DNA of 64,000 nucleotides, from positions 124,001 through 188,000 of the forward strand of contig JABURS010000043.1 of NCBI GenBank assembly GCA_014762505.1, written 5' to 3'. A program made the position numbers and the translations under genes. This document shows positions 1,344 through 36,959 of this stretch, piece after piece; position 1 is the first letter of the stretch, and every line of letters begins with the position of its first letter. Under the pieces are notes generated by a model. The model saw nothing but the letters and a program-made list of their open reading frames with translations. It searched no databases and was not told the DNA's origin. The DNA is from Chromatiales bacterium. GTDB lineage: Bacteria; Pseudomonadota; Gammaproteobacteria; SpSt-1174.

Positions 1344-2750
1344 ATGGAGACCTATAACTACCGGGTGGTGCGCCAGTTCGCCGTGATGACGGTGGTCTGG
1401 GGTATCGTCGGGATGCTCGTCGGTGTCTATATCGCGGCCCAGCTGCGCTGGCCGGAACTCAATTTCGACATACCCTGGCTCACCTACAGCCGCCTGCGGC
1501 CGCTGCATACCAATGCGGTGATCTTCGCCTTCGGCGGCTCGGCGCTGTTCGCCACCTCCTACTACGTGGTGCAGCGCACCTGCCACGCCCGTCTGTTCTC
1601 GGACAGGCTGGCCGGGTTCACCTTCTGGGGCTGGCAGGCGGTCATCGTGCTGGCGGCCATCACCCTGCCTCTGGGCATCACTACCAGCAAGGAATACGCC
1701 GAGCTGGAGTGGCCCATCGACCTGCTGATCACCGTGGTGTGGGTGTCCTACGCCATCGTGTTCTTCGGCACGATCATGAAGCGCAAGGTGAAGCACATCT
1801 ACGTGGCCAACTGGTTCTACGGCGCCTTCATCCTCACCGTGGCCCTGTTGCACGTCGTCAACAGCGCGGCCTTGCCGATCACCCTGACCAAGTCCTATTC
1901 GGTCTATCCCGGTGCCATCGATGCCATGGTGCAGTGGTGGTACGGACACAACGCGGTGGGCTTTTTCCTCACCGCGGGCTTCCTCGGCATGATGTACTAC
2001 TTCGTGCCCAAGCAGGCCGGGCGGCCCGTGTATTCCTATCGCCTGTCGGTGGTGCACTTCTGGGCGCTGATCGCCATCTACATGTGGGCCGGCCCGCATC
2101 ACCTGCACTACACGGCGCTGCCGGATTGGGCGCAGTCGCTCGGCATGGTGATGTCGCTGGTACTGCTGGCCCCGTCCTGGGGCGGGATGATCAACGGCAT
2201 GATGACGCTGTCGGGCGCCTGGCACAAACTGCGCGACGACCCGATCCTGCGCTTCCTCATCGTCTCGCTGTCGTTCTACGGCATGTCGACCTTCGAGGGC
2301 CCGATGATGTCGATCAAGACCGTGAATGCCCTCTCGCATTACACCGACTGGACCATCGGACACGTGCATTCCGGCGCACTCGGCTGGGTGGTGATGGTTT
2401 CGGTGGGCTCGCTCTACGTGCTCATCCCGCAGCTCTTCGGTCGTGAGCGCATGTACAGCACCCGGCTCATCGAGTGGCACTTCTGGACCACCACCATCGG
2501 CGTGGTGCTGTACATCGTCTCCATGTGGATCGCGGGCGTCATGCAGGGCCTGATGTGGCGTGCGGTGAATGCCGACGGCACGCTCACCTACAGCTTCACC
2601 GAGTCGCTGGTGCGCATGTACCCCTACTACACGGTGCGCTTCATCGGTGGCGTGCTGGTGGTGTTCGGCATGTTCCTCATGGCCTACAACGTGTGGAAGA
2701 CGATTGCCGCGGGCAGGGCCGACGAGGCCCCCGTGCCGCAGCCGGCGTGA
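1344..2750 (+). CDS. ccoN: cbb3-type cytochrome c oxidase subunit I
   Basis: This is the catalytic subunit of the high-affinity cbb3 terminal oxidase, which reduces O2 at a haem b3-CuB centre in the inner membrane. At 468 residues it has the usual family length, with about 12 membrane segments. Visible motifs are [12 protein letters not shown] (haem ligand helix), [13 protein letters not shown] (CuB ligand region), AGPHHLHYT, and [10 protein letters not shown] near the C-terminal third. It is first in an operon ccoN-O-Q-P-unknown-G-H, with 13 bases before ccoO. An FNR-type box upstream points to induction at low oxygen. Confidence 0.97.
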
Positions 2751-2763
2751 GAGGAGACGAGAC

Positions 2764-3369
2764 ATGAGTCATGAAATCGTTGAGAAGAACGTCGGGCTGA
2801 TGGCCGTGCTCATCCTCGTGGTGGTGAGCTTCGGTGGCCTGGCGGAGATCGTGCCACTGTTTTTCATGCAGTCCACCACCGAGCCTGTGGAAGGGCTCAA
2901 GCCCTACAGCGCACTGCAGCTGGAAGGACGCGACATCTACGTGCGTGAAGGTTGCTATACCTGCCATTCGCAGATGATCCGGCCCTTCCGGGCCGAGACC
3001 GAGCGCTACGGTCATTATTCGGTGGCCGGCGAGTTCGTCTACGACCATCCCTTCCAGTGGGGCTCCAAGCGCACCGGGCCGGACCTGGCGCGCGTGGGCG
3101 GTCGCTATTCGGACGAGTGGCATCGCGTCCATCTGATCAATCCGCGCGATGTGGTGCCCGAATCCAACATGCCGGGCTTCCCCTGGCTGGAGGAACGCGT
3201 CATCGATCACGAGGTCACGCCGAAGAAGCTGGCGGCCATGCGCACCCTCGGTGTGCCCTACAGCGATGCCGAGATAGAAGGGGCTGCGCAGGCGGTGGAA
3301 GGCAAGACCGAGATGGATGCCCTGATCGCCTATCTGCAGGTGCTGGGCACCGCCATCAAGCAGCGGTGA
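2764..3369 (+). CDS. ccoO: cbb3-type cytochrome c oxidase subunit II (mono-haem)
   Basis: CcoO is the membrane-anchored mono-haem cytochrome c subunit that passes electrons to CcoN. The protein has 201 residues, with an N-terminal transmembrane helix (about 11-34) and CYTCH at 64-68, followed by the family signature [15 protein letters not shown]. The ATG at 2764 follows GAGAGGAGACGAG with good spacing; the reading frame extends upstream inside ccoN but that extension is not CcoO-like. The stop overlaps a possible GTG start for ccoQ. Confidence 0.97.
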
Positions 3370-3374
3370 GCGAG

Positions 3375-3539
3375 ATGGACGGAGCAACCTTTCACAGCAT
3401 CTACACCGTCGTATTGCTGGTCATTTTCATCGGCATCGTGATCTGGGCCTGGAGCGGCCGGCGCAAGCGCGACTTCGACGAGGCCTCGCGTCTGCCGCTC
3501 GAGGACGAGCAGTCATCCCGCAAGCGGGAGGAGGATTGA
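3375..3539 (+). CDS. ccoQ: cbb3 oxidase small subunit CcoQ
   Basis: This 54-residue single-span membrane protein has the CcoQ layout: a short periplasmic N-terminus, one helix (about 6-24, IYTVVLLVIFIGIVIWAW), a basic GRRKRDF stretch, and an acidic tail. CcoQ stabilises the assembled cbb3 complex. The ATG at 3375 is used; an in-frame GTG at 3366 overlapping the ccoO stop is the alternative. The position between ccoO and ccoP is the standard one. Confidence 0.9.
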   Translation: MDGATFHSIYTVVLLVIFIGIVIWAWSGRRKRDFDEASRLPLEDEQSSRKREED

Positions 3540-3541
3540 AC

Positions 3542-4426
3542 ATGAGTGCGTTCTTTCACTGGTGGGTCATCGTCATTACGGTCATCAATCTGCTGGGCTG
3601 CTGGTGGCTGATCCGGTTCAGCGCCCGCTCGGGACCGGCAGCGGCCGGTACCGAGAACACCACCGGCCACGTATGGGACGGACTGCGTGAATACAACAAC
3701 CCGTTGCCGCGCTGGTGGTTGTGGATGTTCTATCTCACGCTGATCTTCGCCGTGATCTATTTCATCCTCTACCCGGGGCTTGGCAACTTCCAGGGCGTAC
3801 TCGGCTGGAGCCAGACGCAGCAGTACGAGGAGGAGATGGCGCAGGCGGATGCCACCTATGGCCCGATCTTCGCCCAGTACGCGAACCAGGAGATCGCCGC
3901 GGTGGCGGCCGACCCGGAGGCGCGGCAGATGGGGCAGAACCTGTTTCTGACCTATTGCTCGCAGTGTCACGGCTCGGATGCCCGCGGGGCGCCGGGCTTC
4001 CCGAACCTGGCCGACGACGAGTGGCTCTGGGGCGGTGATGCGCAGGCCATCAAGACCTCCATCCTGCACGGGCGCAGCGGCGTGATGCCGCCGTTCGGTG
4101 CCGCACTCGGCGAGCAGGGGGTGAAGGAGGTGGCCGCCTACGTGGTCAGCCTGAGTGGGCGCGAGGCCGACCCGCAGCTGGTTGCCGCCGGCCAGCAGCA
4201 CTTCATGATGTGCGCGGCCTGTCACGGTGCCGATGGCAAGGGCAACACCGCGATGGGTGCTCCCGATCTCACCAACAACGTCTGGCTGTATGGCGGTTCG
4301 CTGGGCGTGATCGAGAAGACCATTCGCGAGGGGCGCAACGGCCAGATGCCGGCCCACGAGGAATTCCTGGGCGAGGAGAAGGTGCACATCCTCGCCGCCT
4401 ACGTGTACGGCCTCAGCCGGCAGTAA
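3542..4426 (+). CDS. ccoP: cbb3-type cytochrome c oxidase subunit III (di-haem)
   Basis: CcoP is the di-haem cytochrome c that delivers electrons to CcoO. The 294-residue protein has two N-terminal membrane helices (about 7-25 and 58-78) joined by the CcoP signature region HVWDGLREYNNPLPRWW. Two cytochrome c domains follow, with haem motifs CSQCH (139-143) and CAACH (224-228) and Met ligands in VMPPFG and QMPAHE. The ATG at 3542 has GGGAGGAGG upstream; a TTG six bases earlier is unlikely. It starts two bases after the ccoQ stop. Confidence 0.96.
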   Translation: MSAFFHWWVIVITVINLLGCWWLIRFSARSGPAAAGTENTTGHVWDGLREYNNPLPRWWLWMFYLTLIFAVIYFILYPGLGNFQGVLGWSQTQQYEEEMAQADATYGPIFAQYANQEIAAVAADPEARQMGQNLFLTYCSQCHGSDARGAPGFPNLADDEWLWGGDAQAIKTSILHGRSGVMPPFGAALGEQGVKEVAAYVVSLSGREADPQLVAAGQQHFMMCAACHGADGKGNTAMGAPDLTNNVWLYGGSLGVIEKTIREGRNGQMPAHEEFLGEEKVHILAAYVYGLSRQ

Positions 4427-4440
4427 GCCCAGGAGGGTCC

Positions 4441-4719
4441 ATGGACAGCGAAACCCGGACGAAGGACATTCCCCGCATCCAGAAGGTGGTCTCCGTGCTC
4501 TGGCCGTCATTTCTGACGGCCGGGGTCGCCACCATCCTGTTCTTCACCGCCTTCGACCCGGTGGACCTGGGCATGCTGCTCGGGGTCGAACAGCTGGAAC
4601 GTCTGGAGGCCTACAGCATCGGTTTCTTCCTGTTCTGGATGCTGACCTCCACCTCCTGTGCGCTGACCTGTTATTTCAGAAAGCCCTGCGACGAACTCAA
4701 TCCGCGTCGTGGTGGCTGA
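4441..4719 (+). CDS. Unknown small two-helix membrane protein in cbb3 operon
   Basis: I do not recognise this 92-residue protein. It has two predicted membrane helices (about 18-37 and 57-78), the first close to a basic N-terminus and the second ending in a cysteine-rich stretch with Cys at 73, 77 and 83 (TSTSCALTCYFRKPCDE). It lies between ccoP and ccoG, 14 bases after ccoP and 15 before ccoG, so it is surely co-transcribed. That position and the three cysteines make a role in oxidase assembly or metal handling plausible, but nothing in the sequence shows it. Confidence 0.75.
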   Translation: MDSETRTKDIPRIQKVVSVLWPSFLTAGVATILFFTAFDPVDLGMLLGVEQLERLEAYSIGFFLFWMLTSTSCALTCYFRKPCDELNPRRGG

Positions 4720-4734
4720 TACCCGCAAGCCGTC

Positions 4735-6135
4735 ATGAGTCAGAAGACACCCAGTCCGCCGACCGAGGTGCCGGTCGAGATCTACAGGAAGCGCGAGAAG
4801 ATCTATCCGCGTGAGGTGCATGGCGTGTTTGCACGCCTGCGCGTGGCCGCCGTACTGGCCCTGCTGGGGCTTTACTACGTCATCCCCTGGTTGCACTGGA
4901 ACGGGCAGCAGCTGGTGCTGTTCGACCTGCCTGCACGCAAGTTCCATGTCTTCGGCCTGACCTTCTGGCCGCAGGACTTCTTCTTTCTCGTCATGCTGCT
5001 GGTGGTGGCCGCACTCGCACTGTTCCTCTTTACCACCCTGGCAGGCCGCCTGTGGTGCGGTTATGCCTGTCCGCAGACGGTGTGGACCGAGGTCTTCCTG
5101 TGGATCGAGCGCCGCATCGAGGGTGACCGGCCACGGCAGATGAAGCTCGACAAGGCCCCCTGGTCGCTGCACAAGCTGGCCATCAAGGGCGGCAAGCACC
5201 TGGTGTGGATCCTGTTTGCCCTGTGGACGGGCTTCACCTTCGTCGGCTATTTCACGCCCATCCATCAACTCGCCGTGAAGCTCCTGCAGTTCAATGCCGG
5301 GCCCTGGGAGACCTTCTGGGTGCTGTTCTACGGCTTTGCGACCTACGGCAATGCAGGCTGGATGCGCGAACAGGTCTGCATCTACATGTGTCCCTACGCG
5401 CGTTTCCAGAGCGCGATGTTCGACCGGGACACGCTGGTCATTTCCTACGATGAGTCGCGGGGCGAGCCGCGCGGTTCGCGCAAGCGCGACGAGGATCATC
5501 GTGCACGTGGCCTGGGGGACTGCATCGACTGCACGCTGTGCGTGCAGGTCTGTCCGACCGGCATCGACATCCGCGACGGCCTGCAGTACCAGTGCATCGG
5601 CTGTGCCGCCTGTGTCGATGTCTGCGACCAGGTGATGGAGAAGATGAACTATCCGAAGGGACTCATCCGCTATACCACGGAGAATGCCATGCAGGGAGGG
5701 CGCACGCGCGTGCTGCGGCCGCGCATCGTGATCTATTCCCTCATCCTGCTCGTCATCACGGCCGGCCTGGTCTATGGCCTGGCCACGCGCGTGCCGCTGC
5801 AGCTCGACGTGATGCGCGACCGCAATACCCTGTATCGCGAGACCACCCTGGGGCTGGCGGAGAATGTCTACACGCTGCGGCTTATCAATATGCAGGATGT
5901 CACGCAGCGCTTCGTCCTGACGGTGGAGGGTATTCCCGACCTGCGTCTGGTGGCAGAACAGGCCGAGATCGAGGTACCGGGTGGTGAGCTGGTCACGTTG
6001 CCGGTGCGGGTGCAGGCCGACCCGGTGCACCTGGAACGTGCCAGCACCGAGATACGCTTCACCGCCACCGCCGTGGACGATCCGAAACTGCGTCGTACGC
6101 AGGACGCCCGTTTCCTGGGTCCCATCAACCGCTGA
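4735..6135 (+). CDS. ccoG: cbb3 oxidase accessory protein CcoG (RdxA/FixG family)
   Basis: This 466-residue polytopic membrane ferredoxin is of the CcoG/FixG/RdxA family, which supports cbb3 maturation, probably through copper reduction. Membrane helices occupy the first 220 residues, with a WCGYACPQTVWTE motif. Two [4Fe-4S] ferredoxin motifs follow (CIDCTLCVQVCP and CIGCAACVDVCD), then one more helix and an Ig-like C-terminal domain. ATG 4735 is the natural start. The genes for the copper ATPase CcoI and for CcoS, usually nearby, are not present in this window. Confidence 0.95.
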   Translation: MSQKTPSPPTEVPVEIYRKREKIYPREVHGVFARLRVAAVLALLGLYYVIPWLHWNGQQLVLFDLPARKFHVFGLTFWPQDFFFLVMLLVVAALALFLFTTLAGRLWCGYACPQTVWTEVFLWIERRIEGDRPRQMKLDKAPWSLHKLAIKGGKHLVWILFALWTGFTFVGYFTPIHQLAVKLLQFNAGPWETFWVLFYGFATYGNAGWMREQVCIYMCPYARFQSAMFDRDTLVISYDESRGEPRGSRKRDEDHRARGLGDCIDCTLCVQVCPTGIDIRDGLQYQCIGCAACVDVCDQVMEKMNYPKGLIRYTTENAMQGGRTRVLRPRIVIYSLILLVITAGLVYGLATRVPLQLDVMRDRNTLYRETTLGLAENVYTLRLINMQDVTQRFVLTVEGIPDLRLVAEQAEIEVPGGELVTLPVRVQADPVHLERASTEIRFTATAVDDPKLRRTQDARFLGPINR

Positions 6136-31309: not shown

Positions 31310-32149
31310 ATGAACGACACGCTGGTCAATATCGTCGCCTGGGCGGGCATCGCCGTCTTCGTGCTGGGCAATCTCATGATCGCCTCCTCGGCCTACCGGC
31401 GCGGCCTGATCATGGGCCTGATCGGCCTGGTCCCGGTGGTCAACTTCTACTATGTCGCCTCCGCCTGGACCGAGAACAAGACCCGCAACGGCTTCCTGCT
31501 GCTGGTGGCCGGTGCCCTGGCCGTGGCCGTGGCCTTCTACGGCGGGGCCGACGAGGCCGTGAGCCAGACGGCCAAGCGGGTCGGGGGCGAGGTCGGCGTC
31601 GAGGTGCCGGAGATCAGGATGCCGGTCAAGGCGAAGGGCGAGGTCGAGGCCCCGAATAAGGCCGAGGTCGAGGCCGCCGGCATCGATACCAGCGAGTCGG
31701 TGCTGGAGCGCTCCGATTTCATCGAGGGCTTCGAGATCCAGCCGCTGCCGCCGGAGGACGTGCAGTCCATCCCCGTCGAGACGGTCAAGCGTCTGTGGTA
31801 CCCCGTTTGCCCGGCCGACCTGCCGGGGCGCGAGGCCAAGCCGCTGCGCCTGAAGACGAAGGACGGCAAGGTGGTGGAAGGGCGGCTCGCCGCGGCGGGT
31901 GACATCTCGCTGAGCATCGAGCAGTTCGTGCAGGGCGGCATCGTGAATTTCGAGTACCGCTACAGCGAGCTCGAACGCATCGAGGTCTACGAGCGCGAAC
32001 GCGGGCCGGTGCCGGCCTCGCTGGACTGCACCCCGCCACCGCCGCCCCCGGCACCCGAGGAGGCCTCCCCGGCCGCCGAGCCGGCCCCGGCGCCCGCCGA
32101 ACCGGTCTCCGCCCCGGTGGTGCTGCCGCCGCCGGCGCCCAGCGAGTAA
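31310..32149 (+). CDS. Unknown membrane protein with proline-rich tail
   Basis: I do not recognise this 279-residue protein. It has two or three hydrophobic helices in the first 75 residues, including a basic loop (YRRGLIMGLIGLVPVVNFYYVASAW). A charged linker and a folded-looking central domain (about 150-235, with one Cys pair-like VCPADLP) follow. It ends in a low-complexity Pro/Ala tail with seven prolines in a row near residue 245. The central domain probably faces one side of the inner membrane, with the tail as a tether. GGGGAATG spacing supports the ATG at 31310. Confidence 0.7.
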   Translation: MNDTLVNIVAWAGIAVFVLGNLMIASSAYRRGLIMGLIGLVPVVNFYYVASAWTENKTRNGFLLLVAGALAVAVAFYGGADEAVSQTAKRVGGEVGVEVPEIRMPVKAKGEVEAPNKAEVEAAGIDTSESVLERSDFIEGFEIQPLPPEDVQSIPVETVKRLWYPVCPADLPGREAKPLRLKTKDGKVVEGRLAAAGDISLSIEQFVQGGIVNFEYRYSELERIEVYERERGPVPASLDCTPPPPPPAPEEASPAAEPAPAPAEPVSAPVVLPPPAPSE

Positions 32150-32548: not shown

Positions 32549-33031
32549 TCAGGGCCGCAGGCCGCGGCGCGTGTCCACCAGCTCGATACGCCAGGTGGCG
32601 TGGCAGGCGACGCACTTGTTGAGCGTGTCGCCGAGCTGGCGCAGGGCATGCTGCGTATCGCCCAGGGTCTCCAGGTCCAGGGCGATCTGGTCGAAGTCGG
32701 CGTGGGTGGCGCGGCCGAGCTGACGGAACGCCATCGGCAACTGCTGCCTCACCGCCGGCGGCACATCCTGGGCCATGCCCAGGCCGAGCCGGCGGGCCGC
32801 CGTGATGGCGGTGTCGATGTCCTCGGCGGCCAGTCCCGCCGTGATCTGCTGTACCCCTTCCAGGAACATCCGCATCTCGGTGAGCACCAGGTCGCGCCCG
32901 GCCGGGTCCATGGCGATGACCTCGCGCTGGTCGGGGTCGACGACGCCCTGTCCTTCCTCTGCCGTTTCGGCCTGTGCGAGGGGTGCAAGGGCCAGGCAGG
33001 CGGCGAGCAACAAAGGGGAGATGCGCGGCAT
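32549..33031 (-). CDS. Periplasmic c'-type cytochrome
   Basis: This 160-residue protein has a signal peptide (cleavage after AQA, residue 21) and an all-helical mature part ending in CVACHATWR (140-148). A single CxxCH close to the C-terminus after a four-helix bundle is the layout of cytochrome c' proteins, which bind NO and sometimes O2. It is last in a run of four minus-strand genes with a thioredoxin-membrane fusion, a GcvH-like protein and a CcoN-like module. NO binding is inference from the fold. Confidence 0.82.
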   Translation of the reverse strand: MPRISPLLLAACLALAPLAQAETAEEGQGVVDPDQREVIAMDPAGRDLVLTEMRMFLEGVQQITAGLAAEDIDTAITAARRLGLGMAQDVPPAVRQQLPMAFRQLGRATHADFDQIALDLETLGDTQHALRQLGDTLNKCVACHATWRIELVDTRRGLRP

Positions 33032-33042
33032 GGGGTGTCCTG

Positions 33043-33744
33043 TCAGGTTTCGTTGTGGATGGGGATGGTCTTGTCGTCTCCGCCGCGGCGGTGCCACAGC
33101 ACCGGCCACAGTCGCAGGGTGAAGACGAGCAGGGAGAGCCAGAGCAGCACGGCGCCGGTCACGGACAGGCCCTGCTGGCCGAGGCCGAACCCGGTCAGCA
33201 GCAGCCACAGCCCGAGGTGCGCCAGCCCCTGCTGACCGAGGCTCCAGGCCCCGCCGCGGATGGGGTTGCCGGTGAAGCGGGGCAGCATGTGTTCGGCCAG
33301 GCCGTAGACCAGGAAGGTCATGAAGCCGACCGTGAACAGGTGCAGCGGCAGCGGCCGTGCACTGCCCTCGCCGAACAGCCCGCCGAAGGGCAGGAAGCCG
33401 CCGGCGATGAAGAGGTAGACCATGGCGGCCAGGATGGCGGCGCGACTGGTCGGGCTGAGACCGAGGCCCACGTGGCGCGCACCGCCGGCCTGGCGGTCCG
33501 GGGCGCCTGCCACCAGCTTCAGGCACTCGCCCTCCGGGTGCACACCGATCTGCACCAGCTCGCCGTCCAGCACGATGGCGGGGATGGAGCGGATGCGCAG
33601 CCGCGTGGCGAGCTCGCGTCCCTCCGGCTGTCCCATGTCCACCACCGCGAAGTCGATGGCCTTCTTCTCGGCGATGCCGCGCCAGACCTTCTCGGCCTGG
33701 TGGCAGGTCTGGCACCACTCGGAGACCACCAGTTCGACCTTCAT
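33043..33744 (-). CDS. Thioredoxin-like domain fused to four-helix CcoN-like membrane module
   Basis: This is a two-part protein of 233 residues. Residues 1-75 are a glutaredoxin/thioredoxin-type fold with CQTC at 11-14 and the cis-Pro in RSIPAIVLDG. After a linker come four membrane helices (about 100-220). The second contains LHLFTVGFMTFLVYGLAEHMLPRF, the same pattern as the stand-alone gene at 34216, and resembles helices of haem-copper oxidase subunit I. The spaced His residues could bind haem. The function is unknown; a membrane redox relay is a reasonable guess. Confidence 0.75.
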   Translation of the reverse strand: MKVELVVSEWCQTCHQAEKVWRGIAEKKAIDFAVVDMGQPEGRELATRLRIRSIPAIVLDGELVQIGVHPEGECLKLVAGAPDRQAGGARHVGLGLSPTSRAAILAAMVYLFIAGGFLPFGGLFGEGSARPLPLHLFTVGFMTFLVYGLAEHMLPRFTGNPIRGGAWSLGQQGLAHLGLWLLLTGFGLGQQGLSVTGAVLLWLSLLVFTLRLWPVLWHRRGGDDKTIPIHNET

Positions 33745-33760
33745 CGCTCGCTCCTCCGTC

Positions 33761-34213
33761 TCAGTCCGCGCAGCGCATGCACTGCAGGTCGTAGCGGTCG
33801 ATCCAGGCGCGCAGGGCGTCCATGGCCTCGGGGCCGGTGGTCAGGCGCGCGTAGGCCTGCTGCGGATCGTCGGGCTTCATCACCACCAGCCAGGCATCGC
33901 TGTAGGGGGCGACGTTCACCAGCCCCGGGTCCTTTTCCACCGCCGGGTTGATGCGCACGATGGTGCCGTCGAAGGGGGTGGGGATGCCGCCGGCCCACTT
34001 GCCGGATTCCAGCCGCGCCACCGGCTTGCCCGCCTCGCGGTGCGAGCCCTCCTTGCGGAAGCGGAAGTACTGCACGCGTCCGGCCATGGTCTGTGCGGGG
34101 TCGGTGATGCCCAGGGTGAAGGTGCCGTCGTCCTCCGGCCGCGCCCAGACGTAGTCCAGATCATAGAGCAGGTCGTCCGGCAGCTCGCAGCCGCGGTATT
34201 CGGTCTTGCTCAT
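33761..34213 (-). CDS. GcvH-like lipoyl-carrier protein
   Basis: This 150-residue protein has the glycine cleavage H-protein fold. The lipoyl-lysine hairpin reads LESGKWAGGIPTPFDGTIV with Lys72 in place of the usual ESVK, and the C-terminal part matches GcvH (PYSDAWLVVMKP). It ends in CMRC, which ordinary GcvH lacks. No gcvT, gcvP or lipoate-synthesis gene is near, so it is more likely a carrier in a redox route; lipoate-binding proteins of sulfur oxidation are one known parallel. ATG 34213 has GGGGG eight bases upstream; ATG 34219 overlaps the previous stop. Confidence 0.75.
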   Translation of the reverse strand: MSKTEYRGCELPDDLLYDLDYVWARPEDDGTFTLGITDPAQTMAGRVQYFRFRKEGSHREAGKPVARLESGKWAGGIPTPFDGTIVRINPAVEKDPGLVNVAPYSDAWLVVMKPDDPQQAYARLTTGPEAMDALRAWIDRYDLQCMRCAD

Positions 34214-34215
34214 GG

Positions 34216-34614
34216 TCATGCCCCCTTCGGTCCGTAGTGACGCACGGTGAGCAGGATGTTGCCGGCGAACATGCCGATGCCGATCCAGCTCAGCAGCCCG
34301 CCGACCCCCACCAGGCGGTTGTCCAGCACGATCCAGCCCGCGGCCATCAACCACAGGCCGGCATTGCTCACCCACAGCTGCCCGTTGGCCATGCGCTCGG
34401 AGAACAGGGGCCGGCCGGAGAAGCGCGGCAGCACGTGCAGGCCCACGCCGTAGATCATCATGGCCATGAAGCCCAGCAGCATCACGTGGCCGTGCAGGCG
34501 CGGCACGTTGCCGGGGATGAGCCCCGGCCAGGCCAGCCAGGAGAGCGAGATCAGGCCGCCGATCAGGGCGTAGACCAGGGCCAGGGTGATGAAGAGGCGG
34601 TTGCGCTTGTGCAT
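34216..34614 (-). CDS. Four-helix CcoN-like membrane protein
   Basis: This 132-residue integral membrane protein has four helices. The motif LHGHVMLLGFMAMMIYGVGLHVLPRF carries three histidines and parallels a helix pair of haem-copper oxidase subunit I, here Cco[11 protein letters not shown]. The family is often annotated as cytochrome oxidase subunit I-like, but it is far too short to be an oxidase. It is the first gene of the minus-strand run and is followed with a stop-start overlap by the GcvH-like gene. An FNR-type box lies 64 bases upstream. Confidence 0.75.
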   Translation of the reverse strand: MHKRNRLFITLALVYALIGGLISLSWLAWPGLIPGNVPRLHGHVMLLGFMAMMIYGVGLHVLPRFSGRPLFSERMANGQLWVSNAGLWLMAAGWIVLDNRLVGVGGLLSWIGIGMFAGNILLTVRHYGPKGA

Positions 34615-34677: not shown

Positions 34678-34691
34678 TTGATGTATATCAT
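34678..34691. promoter_or_regulatory. FNR/ANR-type box between CcoN-like and hemerythrin genes
   Basis: TTGATGTATATCAT matches TTGAT-N4-ATCAA at nine of ten positions. It lies in the 238-base divergent gap. A minus-strand TATAAA (34649-34644) would put the box at about -47 for the CcoN-like gene; no good -10 fits the class II spacing on the plus strand. Confidence 0.65.
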
Positions 34692-34852
34692 GTGCATCTT
34701 TTATCCGGGCTGCAACCCGCACAAGTCCACGAGCTTGCCGGGGTTACTTGCGCGATGGGAGCGGATCGGGATTAATGCCCGCGTTTCACCGGTACCCTGC
34801 CGGTGGTATGGTGCTGGCCCTGCCCGACGTATTCCCGATTCGAGGTTTGCCG

Positions 34853-35560
34853 ATGTCCACACGCCTGATCGATCTGACCGCCGACGACCTGGGGATGGCC
34901 CCCCACAGCTACGCCTTCTACGCGCTGCGTGAACTGCGCCATGGCGAAGACGCCACCCTGCGGCTCGCCGAGGAGCCCTCGGTCCTGATGAAGAGCCTGG
35001 AGATCCAGCTGCGCCGGGGCATCCACTGGGAGGTGACGGAGGCCGGGCCGCCGGTGTGGACGGTGAGCGTGAAGCGCCGCGACGACGTGGACGCCGCCGA
35101 CCTCATCGACCTGCTGACCCGCGACCACCTGCGCATCGACAAGCTCTTTGCCAATGCCCTGCACTTGGCCAACGCCAACAGGATCGAGGAGGCACTGCCG
35201 TATTTTCGCGAGTACGCCGCCGCCCTGCGCCGGCACCTGAGCCTGGAGGACGAGATCCTCGCACCGCGCTTCGACCTGCCGCGCAGCCCGGCGGGCGACG
35301 ACCCGACCTCCATCATGGTGCGCGAGCACGAACAGATCCTGGAGCAGACGGTGATGATGGAGGAACTGATCGACGAGGGCCTGGGTGATGCCGGCATGCT
35401 GGCGCCCTTCTTCGCCATGCTCTCCGGGCAGCTCGCCAAGCACGAGTATCGCGAGGAGGAGAACCTCTTCCCGCACTGGAAGCGGCTGGTGAAGAACCTG
35501 GAGGGCGAGGAGGACGAGCTCTTCCGCATCGCCCGCGAGACCATCGGCGAGGTGCGCTGA
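34853..35560 (+). CDS. DUF2249-hemerythrin protein
   Basis: This 235-residue protein has two domains. Residues 1-75 match DUF2249, a TusA-like fold (ending GPPVWTVSVKR). Residues 85-230 form a hemerythrin four-helix bundle with the di-iron ligands in LTRDHLRIDK, LRRHLSLEDEIL, MVREHEQIL and LAKHEYREEENLFPHW. Such proteins bind O2 or NO or guard iron-sulfur clusters. ATG 34853 is chosen since the DUF2249 domain begins there; the frame is open upstream. The upstream FNR-type box fits a role at low oxygen or under nitrosative stress. Confidence 0.88.
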   Translation: MSTRLIDLTADDLGMAPHSYAFYALRELRHGEDATLRLAEEPSVLMKSLEIQLRRGIHWEVTEAGPPVWTVSVKRRDDVDAADLIDLLTRDHLRIDKLFANALHLANANRIEEALPYFREYAAALRRHLSLEDEILAPRFDLPRSPAGDDPTSIMVREHEQILEQTVMMEELIDEGLGDAGMLAPFFAMLSGQLAKHEYREEENLFPHWKRLVKNLEGEEDELFRIARETIGEVR

Positions 35561-35586: not shown

Positions 35587-36486
35587 TCAGGCCGAGAGAA
35601 ACAGCCCGGCGGCCAGCAGGCCGCCGGTACCCAGTACCAGCAGCACGTTCTGTCCCAGCACCGGCGTCAGCCGCGCGACATCCGCGTGGTGGCGCCAGGC
35701 CCCGCGCCACACCACGATCCCCAGCGGCAGGGTGGCAAGTCCTGCCAGCGCACCGACCGGCAACAGCCCGCCCGCCCAGCCGAGCAGCAGGCTCGCATAG
35801 GCCGCCAGCAGGAATCCCCCGAACACGTACAGGCTCCCCCGGGCCCCGATGACGATGGGCAGGTGGCGCCGGCCCGCGCCGGCATCCGCCTCCCGGTCCG
35901 GCAGCTGGTTCAGCAGCAACAGGTTGCTGGCGAGGAACAGCATGGGCAGCGAGGCGACGAGCAGGCGCGGGTCCAGCCCGCCGGTGAGCACCACGCCGGT
36001 GCCGGCGACGATCACCGGGCCGAAGCCGATCCCGGGGGCCAGCAGGCAGAGCCAGGGGTTGCGGTTGAGCCAGGGGGTGTAGGTGACGACCAGCGCCACG
36101 CCGATCAGGCCCAGCACCAGGGCGGCCGGCCCGCCGGCCTGCAGGAGATAGAGGCCAATGAGGCCGCTGGCGAGCAGCGTGACCAGGCCCAGGCCCAGGG
36201 CCAGCGGGGCCCACTGCGGCTGGCGGGGGAGCACCCCGCTGCCCCCGCTGAAGGGGGTGCGGGTGGTGTGCAGGTCCAGCCCGCTGCGAAAGTCGTGGTA
36301 CTCGTTGAGGCTGTTGACCGCCGTGTGGGCGAGCACCGCCGCCAGCAGGGCGAGCAGGGCGTGGCCGCCATGCACGGTGCCGGGCAGCCAGCAGGCGGCG
36401 GCCGCGCCGATGGCCCAGGCCACCAGGGCCAGCAAGAGGAAGGGCGCGCGGGCCAGCCCCGGCAGGGCGCGGGCGGGGGTGGTCAC
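35587..36486 (-). CDS. UbiA-family prenyltransferase
   Basis: This 299-residue membrane prenyltransferase has about eight or nine helices. The first Asp-rich motif is NEYHDFRSGLD (MenA-like Nxx(x)D form) and the second is LPDREADAGAGRRHLPIVIG. That pattern is closest to 1,4-dihydroxy-2-naphthoate prenyltransferases, which would imply a naphthoquinone, but no other men gene is present, so the acceptor is open. The start GTG 36486 lies one base after the truncated haemoglobin stop, so the two genes are coupled. Confidence 0.85.
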   Translation of the reverse strand: MTTPARALPGLARAPFLLLALVAWAIGAAAACWLPGTVHGGHALLALLAAVLAHTAVNSLNEYHDFRSGLDLHTTRTPFSGGSGVLPRQPQWAPLALGLGLVTLLASGLIGLYLLQAGGPAALVLGLIGVALVVTYTPWLNRNPWLCLLAPGIGFGPVIVAGTGVVLTGGLDPRLLVASLPMLFLASNLLLLNQLPDREADAGAGRRHLPIVIGARGSLYVFGGFLLAAYASLLLGWAGGLLPVGALAGLATLPLGIVVWRGAWRHHADVARLTPVLGQNVLLVLGTGGLLAAGLFLSA

Positions 36487-36487
36487 G

Positions 36488-36892
36488 TCAGCCGCGGTTG
36501 CGCATGTGGTCGGCGGTGCCGAAGAAGGCGCGCTTGAGGGCCTCGCGCAGCCCGGCGTCCGCCACCTGCTCGTCCAGCGCCTGGTTCATGCACAGCAGCC
36601 ACTGGTCGCGCTCGGCCTCGCCGATGGGGAAGGGCAGATGTCGGCGGCGCAGCATGGGGTGGCCGTATTCGTCCCAGTACAGCGGCGGACCACCCAGCCA
36701 GCCGGAGAGGAACTTGTAGAGCTTGTCGGCCGAACCCGACAGGTCCTGCGGGTGCAGGCGCCGGATCTCGTACGTCTCGGGCAGGGTGTCCATCAGCTCG
36801 TAGAAGCGGTCCACGAGGCGGCGCACGGCGGCGTCACCGCCGAGGCGCTCGTAGGGGGTCGGTTCCTGGTCAGGGGCGCTTTGCTGGGTCAT
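36488..36892 (-). CDS. Group II truncated haemoglobin
   Basis: This 134-residue globin of the 2-on-2 class II has the typical PYERLGGDAAVRRLVDRFYELMD start, with Tyr at B10, then LSGWLGGPPLYWDEYGHPMLRRRHLPFPIG carrying the proximal His and the conserved Trp-containing QWLLCMNQAL. Such globins bind O2 and NO and may detoxify NO or peroxide. ATG 36892 is preferred over one ten codons upstream. It is co-transcribed with the UbiA gene and lies in the gas-handling cluster. Confidence 0.92.
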   Translation of the reverse strand: MTQQSAPDQEPTPYERLGGDAAVRRLVDRFYELMDTLPETYEIRRLHPQDLSGSADKLYKFLSGWLGGPPLYWDEYGHPMLRRRHLPFPIGEAERDQWLLCMNQALDEQVADAGLREALKRAFFGTADHMRNRG

Positions 36893-36959
36893 GGGGCTGT
36901 CCGTGTTTCCGGGTGTGCCCACTATACCCAGCGCCCCGGACGGCCGCCAACAACCGGGG

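Follow-up and report, generated by a model that had tools for sequence, protein, structure and literature searches.

A conserved operon of sulfur oxidisers that combines paired four-helix relatives of an oxidase subunit with thioredoxin and a putative lipoate carrier

Why would a thioredoxin be fused to a membrane module that resembles part of a terminal oxidase, beside a second module of the same kind? The question is raised by positions 33043-34614 of the window (the whole 64,000-nucleotide stretch of Chromatiales DNA that was analysed), where an initial annotation had placed two paralogous modules; both reading frames are present there. Three overlapping or closely spaced genes lie on the minus strand in the order TMa, LipH, Trx::TMb. 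TMa (34216-34614) encodes 132 aa with four helices, related to helices IX-XII of oxidase subunit I. LipH (33761-34219), between the other two genes, encodes a GcvH-like putative lipoate carrier of a third LbpA clade; its start overlaps the TMa stop (ATGA), the alternative being a second ATG at 34213. Trx::TMb (33043-33744) joins an N-terminal thioredoxin fold (bases 33499-33744, aa 1-82, with C11QTC14) to a TMa-like four-helix module, TMb (about aa 95-222).

Membrane modules and fused thioredoxin

The residue pattern that had been read in both proteins is exact, at a constant offset of 92 residues: H43, G48-F-M, Y55-G56, H60, L62-P-R-F65, G67 and P69 in TMa correspond to H135, G140-F-M, Y147-G148, H152, L154-P-R-F157, G159 and P161 in the fusion. 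BLASTP aligned TMa with the fusion at E 3e-13 (32% over 114 aa), and profile-profile comparison of TMa with TMb gave a probability of 99.5% (E 4e-23), so that on these alignments the two modules are paralogues, as first proposed. The histidines fit for haem are also retained. H41, H43 and H60 are invariant across 54 TMa sequences, as are H135 and H152 among 52 TMb sequences, and the shared pattern is therefore not due to chance. TMb keeps only the second position of the HxH motif and has lost the haem b3 ligand.

TMa resembles oxidases by several measures. Each of the 11 members scanned has a match to the COX1 family (PF00115; best E 7e-9); the window protein scored 29.6 bits, under the Pfam gathering score of 34.8. 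NnrS (PF05940) was also matched by 8 of the 11 (best E 1e-4). The top PDB sequence match of the TMa profile was CcoN (3mk7, E 0.0016), and NorB (3o0r) was also found. In the profile alignment, H41 and H43 of TMa fall on CcoN H345 and H347, which we take to bind haem b3 and haem b, respectively. TMa thus has the HxH of subunit I helix X (H41xH43), and it shares an HxxPxxxG motif with CcoN. Searched against the oxidases of the source genome (E-values computed for six sequences), the TMa profile matched the last four-helix third, and the first and second thirds more weakly, which fits a subunit I built of three four-helix units.

An AlphaFold model of TMa (pLDDT 86, pTM 0.76) could be superimposed on subunit I helices IX-XII with Z up to 13 and an rmsd of about 2.3-3.6 over 120-131 residues. 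Since LTC4 synthase-like four-helix bundles reached Z of about 9, the fold match is not proof by itself; it agrees with the sequence. A MAPEG/glutathione-transferase fold was considered for TMa and rejected, as its match at Z about 9 comes without sequence support of the kind the oxidases have. Taken together, the profile and model comparisons show that TMa is genuinely related to haem-copper oxidase subunit I. TMa and TMb have four helices each, against the twelve per chain of subunit I, and the three CuB histidine ligands of subunit I helices VI and VII are absent from both, as they lack those helices.

For TMb, the profile link to oxidases is weaker than for TMa (NnrS E 1e-3; COX1 E 0.04 at best) and otherwise runs through TMa. 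The fusion scored 18.8 bits against PF05940, below the cut-off of 28, and its membrane part was modelled with the same four-helix pattern at low confidence. Thus, the label of mini-CcoN holds for TMa and less firmly for TMb. The thioredoxin domain has the features of its family: it scored 36.5 bits against PF13192, above the Pfam cut-off; the thioredoxin part of the model, compared separately, matched thioredoxins with Z of 10-12 and rmsd of 1.5-2.2; and both cysteines of its CxxC are invariant in 47 sequences. From the charge distribution of TMa and TMb, the two termini and the loop between the helix pairs face the cytosol (N-in/C-in). The Trx domain is therefore predicted to be cytosolic, with the HxH motif at the periplasmic end of helix 2.

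Distribution and variants of the operon

When the genomes of 84,980 species were scanned with a TMa alignment, 56 loci were found, of which about 50 are true operons; some of these loci belong to the same genomes as those of our class sample. The genes share their order in about 50 genomes, and the conserved synteny that the initial annotation had made a test of its reading is thus present. Carriers are found in Thioalkalivibrio, Sulfuricella, Sulfuriferula, Sideroxydans/Gallionellaceae, Thiobacillus and Pseudomonadota MAGs, with one weak TMa relative in Gemmatimonadetes; cultured Thioalkalivibrio and Sulfuriferula carry the operon. A viral or mobile origin was rejected: no relatives were found in viral contigs with the query used, and the PHROGs match was limited to the thioredoxin domain.

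The order TMa-(LipH)-Trx::TMb is constant over the loci, and TMa and TMb are adjacent and paired in nearly all. LipH is absent from a minority (L090, L096, L101, L103, L104, L105, L108). Five loci keep the TMa/TMb pair without the Trx domain (L084, L091, L094, L095, L097), and one genome (L052/L115) has a single hybrid TMa/TMb module by cytochrome d1 genes. These variants bear on the simplest account of the helices, that they hold no cofactor and merely anchor thioredoxin and LipH in the membrane. The occurrence of Trx and LipH without membrane modules at some loci speaks for such an anchor; the invariant haem-ligand-type histidines of 54 TMa and 52 TMb sequences, and the five loci where the pair persists without Trx or LipH, speak against it, and we consider it improbable.

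Several relatives lie outside the operon proper. Small COX1 relatives of the L183/L184 type occur in about 40 genomes of another Pseudomonadota family, with a second, separate neighbourhood of mini-CcoN and thioredoxin genes (L183:1070-2720, L183:16539-17075, L184:1590-3279); one such gene lies between genes for a cytochrome c and a thioredoxin-like lipoprotein, near oxidase genes. A lone gammaproteobacterial protein of 126 aa (L187:5895-6275) has a TMa-like H-x-H helix and matched no Pfam or NCBIfam model. A 434-aa membrane protein of about 12 helices (L045:3023-4327; also L076, L114 and L115) adjoins module genes; its first part was matched by the TMa profile (E 3e-7 among six sequences), and it too matched no Pfam or NCBIfam model. 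The hybrid TMa/TMb module (L052:6186-6578, in G148:C35:15188-22547) is accompanied by a hemerythrin and a partial relative of the 12-helix protein, and the cytochrome d1 genes that it adjoins are nirS-like. Finally, L053-L062 contain a lone Trx of the same family with hemerythrin or CRP/FNR genes and FNR/DNR boxes, often with LipH. These loci, which have no membrane modules, are a soluble version of the system.

LipH and the link to sulfur oxidation

LipH matches GCV_H with 108 bits (Pfam) and is one of four GCV_H proteins in the source genome, the others being GcvH (contig C16) and a neighbouring pair (C19). The pair is LbpA1 and LbpA2, within an shdr cluster with lipoate-assembly genes that was recognised from gene order and published descriptions (PMC6382920, PMC10332631). 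LipH lies on contig C43, away from this cluster. LbpA proteins are marked by extra conserved cysteines near both ends that are missing from GcvH (PMC6067878). In LipH, Cys11, Cys147 and Cys150 are invariant in 37 sequences, as are Lys74 in ESGKWAGG, the candidate lipoyl lysine, and the C-x-R-C ending (CMRC) created by the second C-terminal cysteine. In a tree of 59 sequences, LbpA split from GcvH with support of 100/100, and LipH came out next to LbpA1 as a third clade of LbpA (99/95; monophyly of LipH 84/87), a placement to be read with a long-branch warning. A plain GcvH is ruled out for the middle gene by the tree and the cysteine pattern, both of which are LbpA-like. By its sequence, then, LipH is a third clade of LbpA and a predicted lipoate carrier.

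Almost every carrier of the operon is a sulfur oxidiser that has sHdr genes, reverse-Dsr genes or both. Among the 47 TMa genomes, LipH was in the operon in 32 of the 35 with sHdr and in 1 of the 12 others. Scored with sHdrB1, 32 had both, 1 had LipH only, 3 had sHdr only and 11 had neither (Fisher p 2e-7, uncorrected for kinship). The one genome with LipH and no sHdr is a 2.0-Mb MAG, and most genomes without sHdr have dsrA instead. In the class sample, sHdr was found in 10 of 10 TMa-positive genomes besides G001 (75% complete), compared to 21 of 369 genomes overall; seven further sHdr-positive genomes had a lone Trx copy, mostly near LipH and/or hemerythrin genes. A strict tie of the whole operon to sHdr was rejected because TMa and TMb also occur in dsrA genomes without sHdr, and only LipH follows it. 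Therefore, TMa and TMb belong to sulfur oxidisers generally, and LipH goes with the lipoate-based pathway.

These counts raise the question of whether the operon is an electron outlet of cytoplasmic sulfur oxidation at low oxygen. To our knowledge, it has yet to be settled where electrons leave the sHdr system. Here, dihydrolipoyl-LipH loaded by sHdr, or another dithiol, would pass electrons through Trx and haem b to quinone or a periplasmic cytochrome c, much as DsrMK would, with the mini-oxidase module replacing a NarI-type cytochrome b. The restriction to sulfur oxidisers, the place of LipH as sister to the sulfur carrier LbpA1 and its co-occurrence with sHdr all fit an outlet, as does a rhodanese gene directly downstream of the operon in nine Thioalkalivibrio loci. 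However, membrane modules are missing from about half of the genomes with sHdr in the class sample, the operon lies outside the shdr cluster in the genome examined, and reverse-Dsr genomes keep TMa and TMb without LipH and sometimes without Trx. The regulator and hemerythrin neighbours (see below) also suggest oxygen or NO instead, and on balance we find an outlet rather unlikely.

Regulation, proposed function and comparison with known systems

Perfect TTGAYN4RTCAA boxes were found at 37 of 52 loci, one in each, at a distance of 40-110 bases upstream of TMa. As 17 such boxes were found elsewhere in 719 kb, only 0.09 would be expected in the 40-110-base windows. The window has an FNR/DNR-type box with 9 of the 10 consensus bases, TTGATgtatATCAT (34678-34691), 64-77 bases upstream of the TMa start. 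Loci that have Trx and LipH alone also contain FNR/DNR-type boxes. A CRP-family regulator is encoded divergently at about half of the loci. The copy tested was closest to Pseudomonas aeruginosa DNR (165 bits; next family 96) and, by eye, has no FNR cysteine cluster. In other bacteria, DNR regulons comprise denitrification genes, nnrS and NO-defence genes (PMC1274295).

Neighbours of the operon include hemerythrins, a truncated globin, a cytochrome c'-like protein and, at some loci, a 12-helix oxidase-fold protein. In the window, a DUF2249-like protein with hemerythrin (34748-35560, plus strand) is encoded divergently from the operon, a neighbour also conserved in the same genus and in Thioalkalivibrio. 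Directly downstream of Trx::TMb, on the same strand, lies a gene for an exported cytochrome c'-like CxxCH protein (32549-33031; weak PF01322 match, E 0.019). Its position is kept in a sister genome, and we are unsure whether the protein belongs to the TMa/TMb system. The truncated globin gene (36488-36922, minus strand; PF01152), which adjoins one for a UbiA prenyltransferase (35587-36486), is likewise conserved in the sister genome and is mentioned as context. Elsewhere in the window, 31310-32149 (plus strand) encodes 279 aa with a hydrophobic N-terminal part, a Pro/Ala-rich end and no family match. Betaproteobacterial loci have glutamine synthetase/ntrBC and xthA as neighbours, which we take as an inherited location rather than a sign of function.

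The window also contains cbb3 oxidase genes (1344-6135). Together with the other mini-CcoN family, which occurs within an oxidase cluster, next to the gene for a thioredoxin-like lipoprotein, these genes could point to a role in oxidase assembly, with the modules holding or delivering haem or copper and Trx keeping a cysteine partner reduced in the manner of Sco or TlpA. Oxidase-assembly thioredoxins are periplasmic, and the predicted cytosolic Trx domain is unlike them. In addition, the operon is about 28 kb from the cbb3 genes, and its phyletic pattern tracks sulfur oxidation rather than oxidases. We regard cofactor handling as very improbable.

Does the box respond to NO or to oxygen? Among the 11 TMa-positive genomes of the class sample, cNorB was present in only 4, and narG and nirS were rare; of these three genes, the source genome has cNorB only. 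Full denitrification was rejected as the general context, as all three are patchy among carriers, and endogenous NO therefore cannot be the general reason for the operon. FNR also binds this box, so that low oxygen might suffice as the signal. Judging from the boxes upstream of TMa, the operon is apparently induced at low oxygen or by NO.

The strongest clues to function are the LbpA-type carrier, the FNR/DNR box, the DNR-like regulator with the hemerythrins, and the link to sulfur oxidation. In the explanation we favour, TMa and TMb would be two four-helix oxidase-fold subunits of one small haem protein in the membrane. Homology predicts a low-spin haem b close to the periplasmic face, where the two subunits would meet and TMa H43 and TMb H135 would supply its ligands; a second, open haem may be bound by TMa H41, the former haem b3 ligand, and there is no copper site. 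Electrons would be exchanged between the cytosolic Trx domain of TMb and LipH, through the lipoyl group or CxxC of the latter, and the FNR/DNR-type box would switch the genes on at low oxygen or with NO. The haem would receive electrons from dithiols and hand them to NO or quinone, and the most likely job would be to keep the lipoyl and cysteine carriers of the sulfur pathway working and free of nitrosylation. What the data show are the genes, their homology, conserved residues and order, the DNA box and the tie to sulfur oxidation; the haem, the complex, the electron path, the induction signal and the role of NO are what we infer. A redox coupling of dithiol and membrane haem, in either direction, seems to us rather probable. 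The full account, a membrane haem protein induced by low oxygen or NO, wired to cytosolic dithiols and probably guarding sulfur-carrier thiols, is put forward tentatively. Some sulfur oxidisers have Trx, LipH, box and hemerythrin without membrane modules, and the haem part is thus inessential to the thiol part.

What is new in the operon is the arrangement; its parts are of known kinds. The view that no described system has it was upheld in the open literature searched, where we found no description of the operon, of an LbpA3 or of a CcoN-thioredoxin fusion; published Thioalkalivibrio papers offered nothing usable on operon expression or gene lists. There is a fair chance that the working complex is categorically new. 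Somewhat doubtful, in our opinion, is a new class of redox complex in sulfur oxidisers, with single four-helix oxidase-fold modules, an inter-subunit haem b, a lipoyl/thioredoxin relay and control by O2 or NO, as though the units ancestral to the 12-helix oxidase had never been joined. If correct, the proposal would provide the first link known to us of lipoate/thioredoxin dithiols with an oxidase-fold haem protein, a third lipoate carrier for sulfur oxidation, and an extant four-helix unit for testing whether the 12-helix oxidases originated by triplication.

How does the operon compare with known systems? CcoN, subunit I of the cbb3 oxidase (NorB is of the same superfamily), is matched by TMa in helices IX-XII, the HxH of helix X and HxxPxxxG. 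In contrast to its twelve helices, TMa and TMb have four each, on two separate paralogous chains, one of them thioredoxin-fused, and the copper ligands of CcoN are missing from both. NnrS, a haem- and copper-containing NO-resistance membrane protein, is a single 12-helix chain of the same superfamily. It gives weak profile matches to both modules and resembles the operon in the FNR/DNR-type box and hemerythrin company; however, the window protein matches below the Pfam cut-off, and the modules have four helices rather than one long chain. DsrMKJOP and HdrDE would be functional parallels for electron transfer from a cytosolic dithiol to membrane haem, although their membrane cytochrome is unrelated to TMa and TMb and their catalytic subunit is an iron-sulfur protein. 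The small COX1-like proteins of the L183/L184 family (168-180 aa, mostly two per genome) are four-helix CcoN relatives, one of which adjoins a thioredoxin-like gene, but they lie within an oxidase cluster, with a separate thioredoxin-like lipoprotein and without LipH. LbpA1 and LbpA2 are the lipoate carriers of the sHdr sulfur-oxidation pathway (PMC6067878, PMC10332631). LipH likewise has the lysine in ESGKW and extra N- and C-terminal cysteines, and branches by LbpA1. It differs in forming a separate clade, in the second C-terminal cysteine of its CMRC ending, and in lying outside the shdr cluster, in the company of Trx and mini-oxidase genes.
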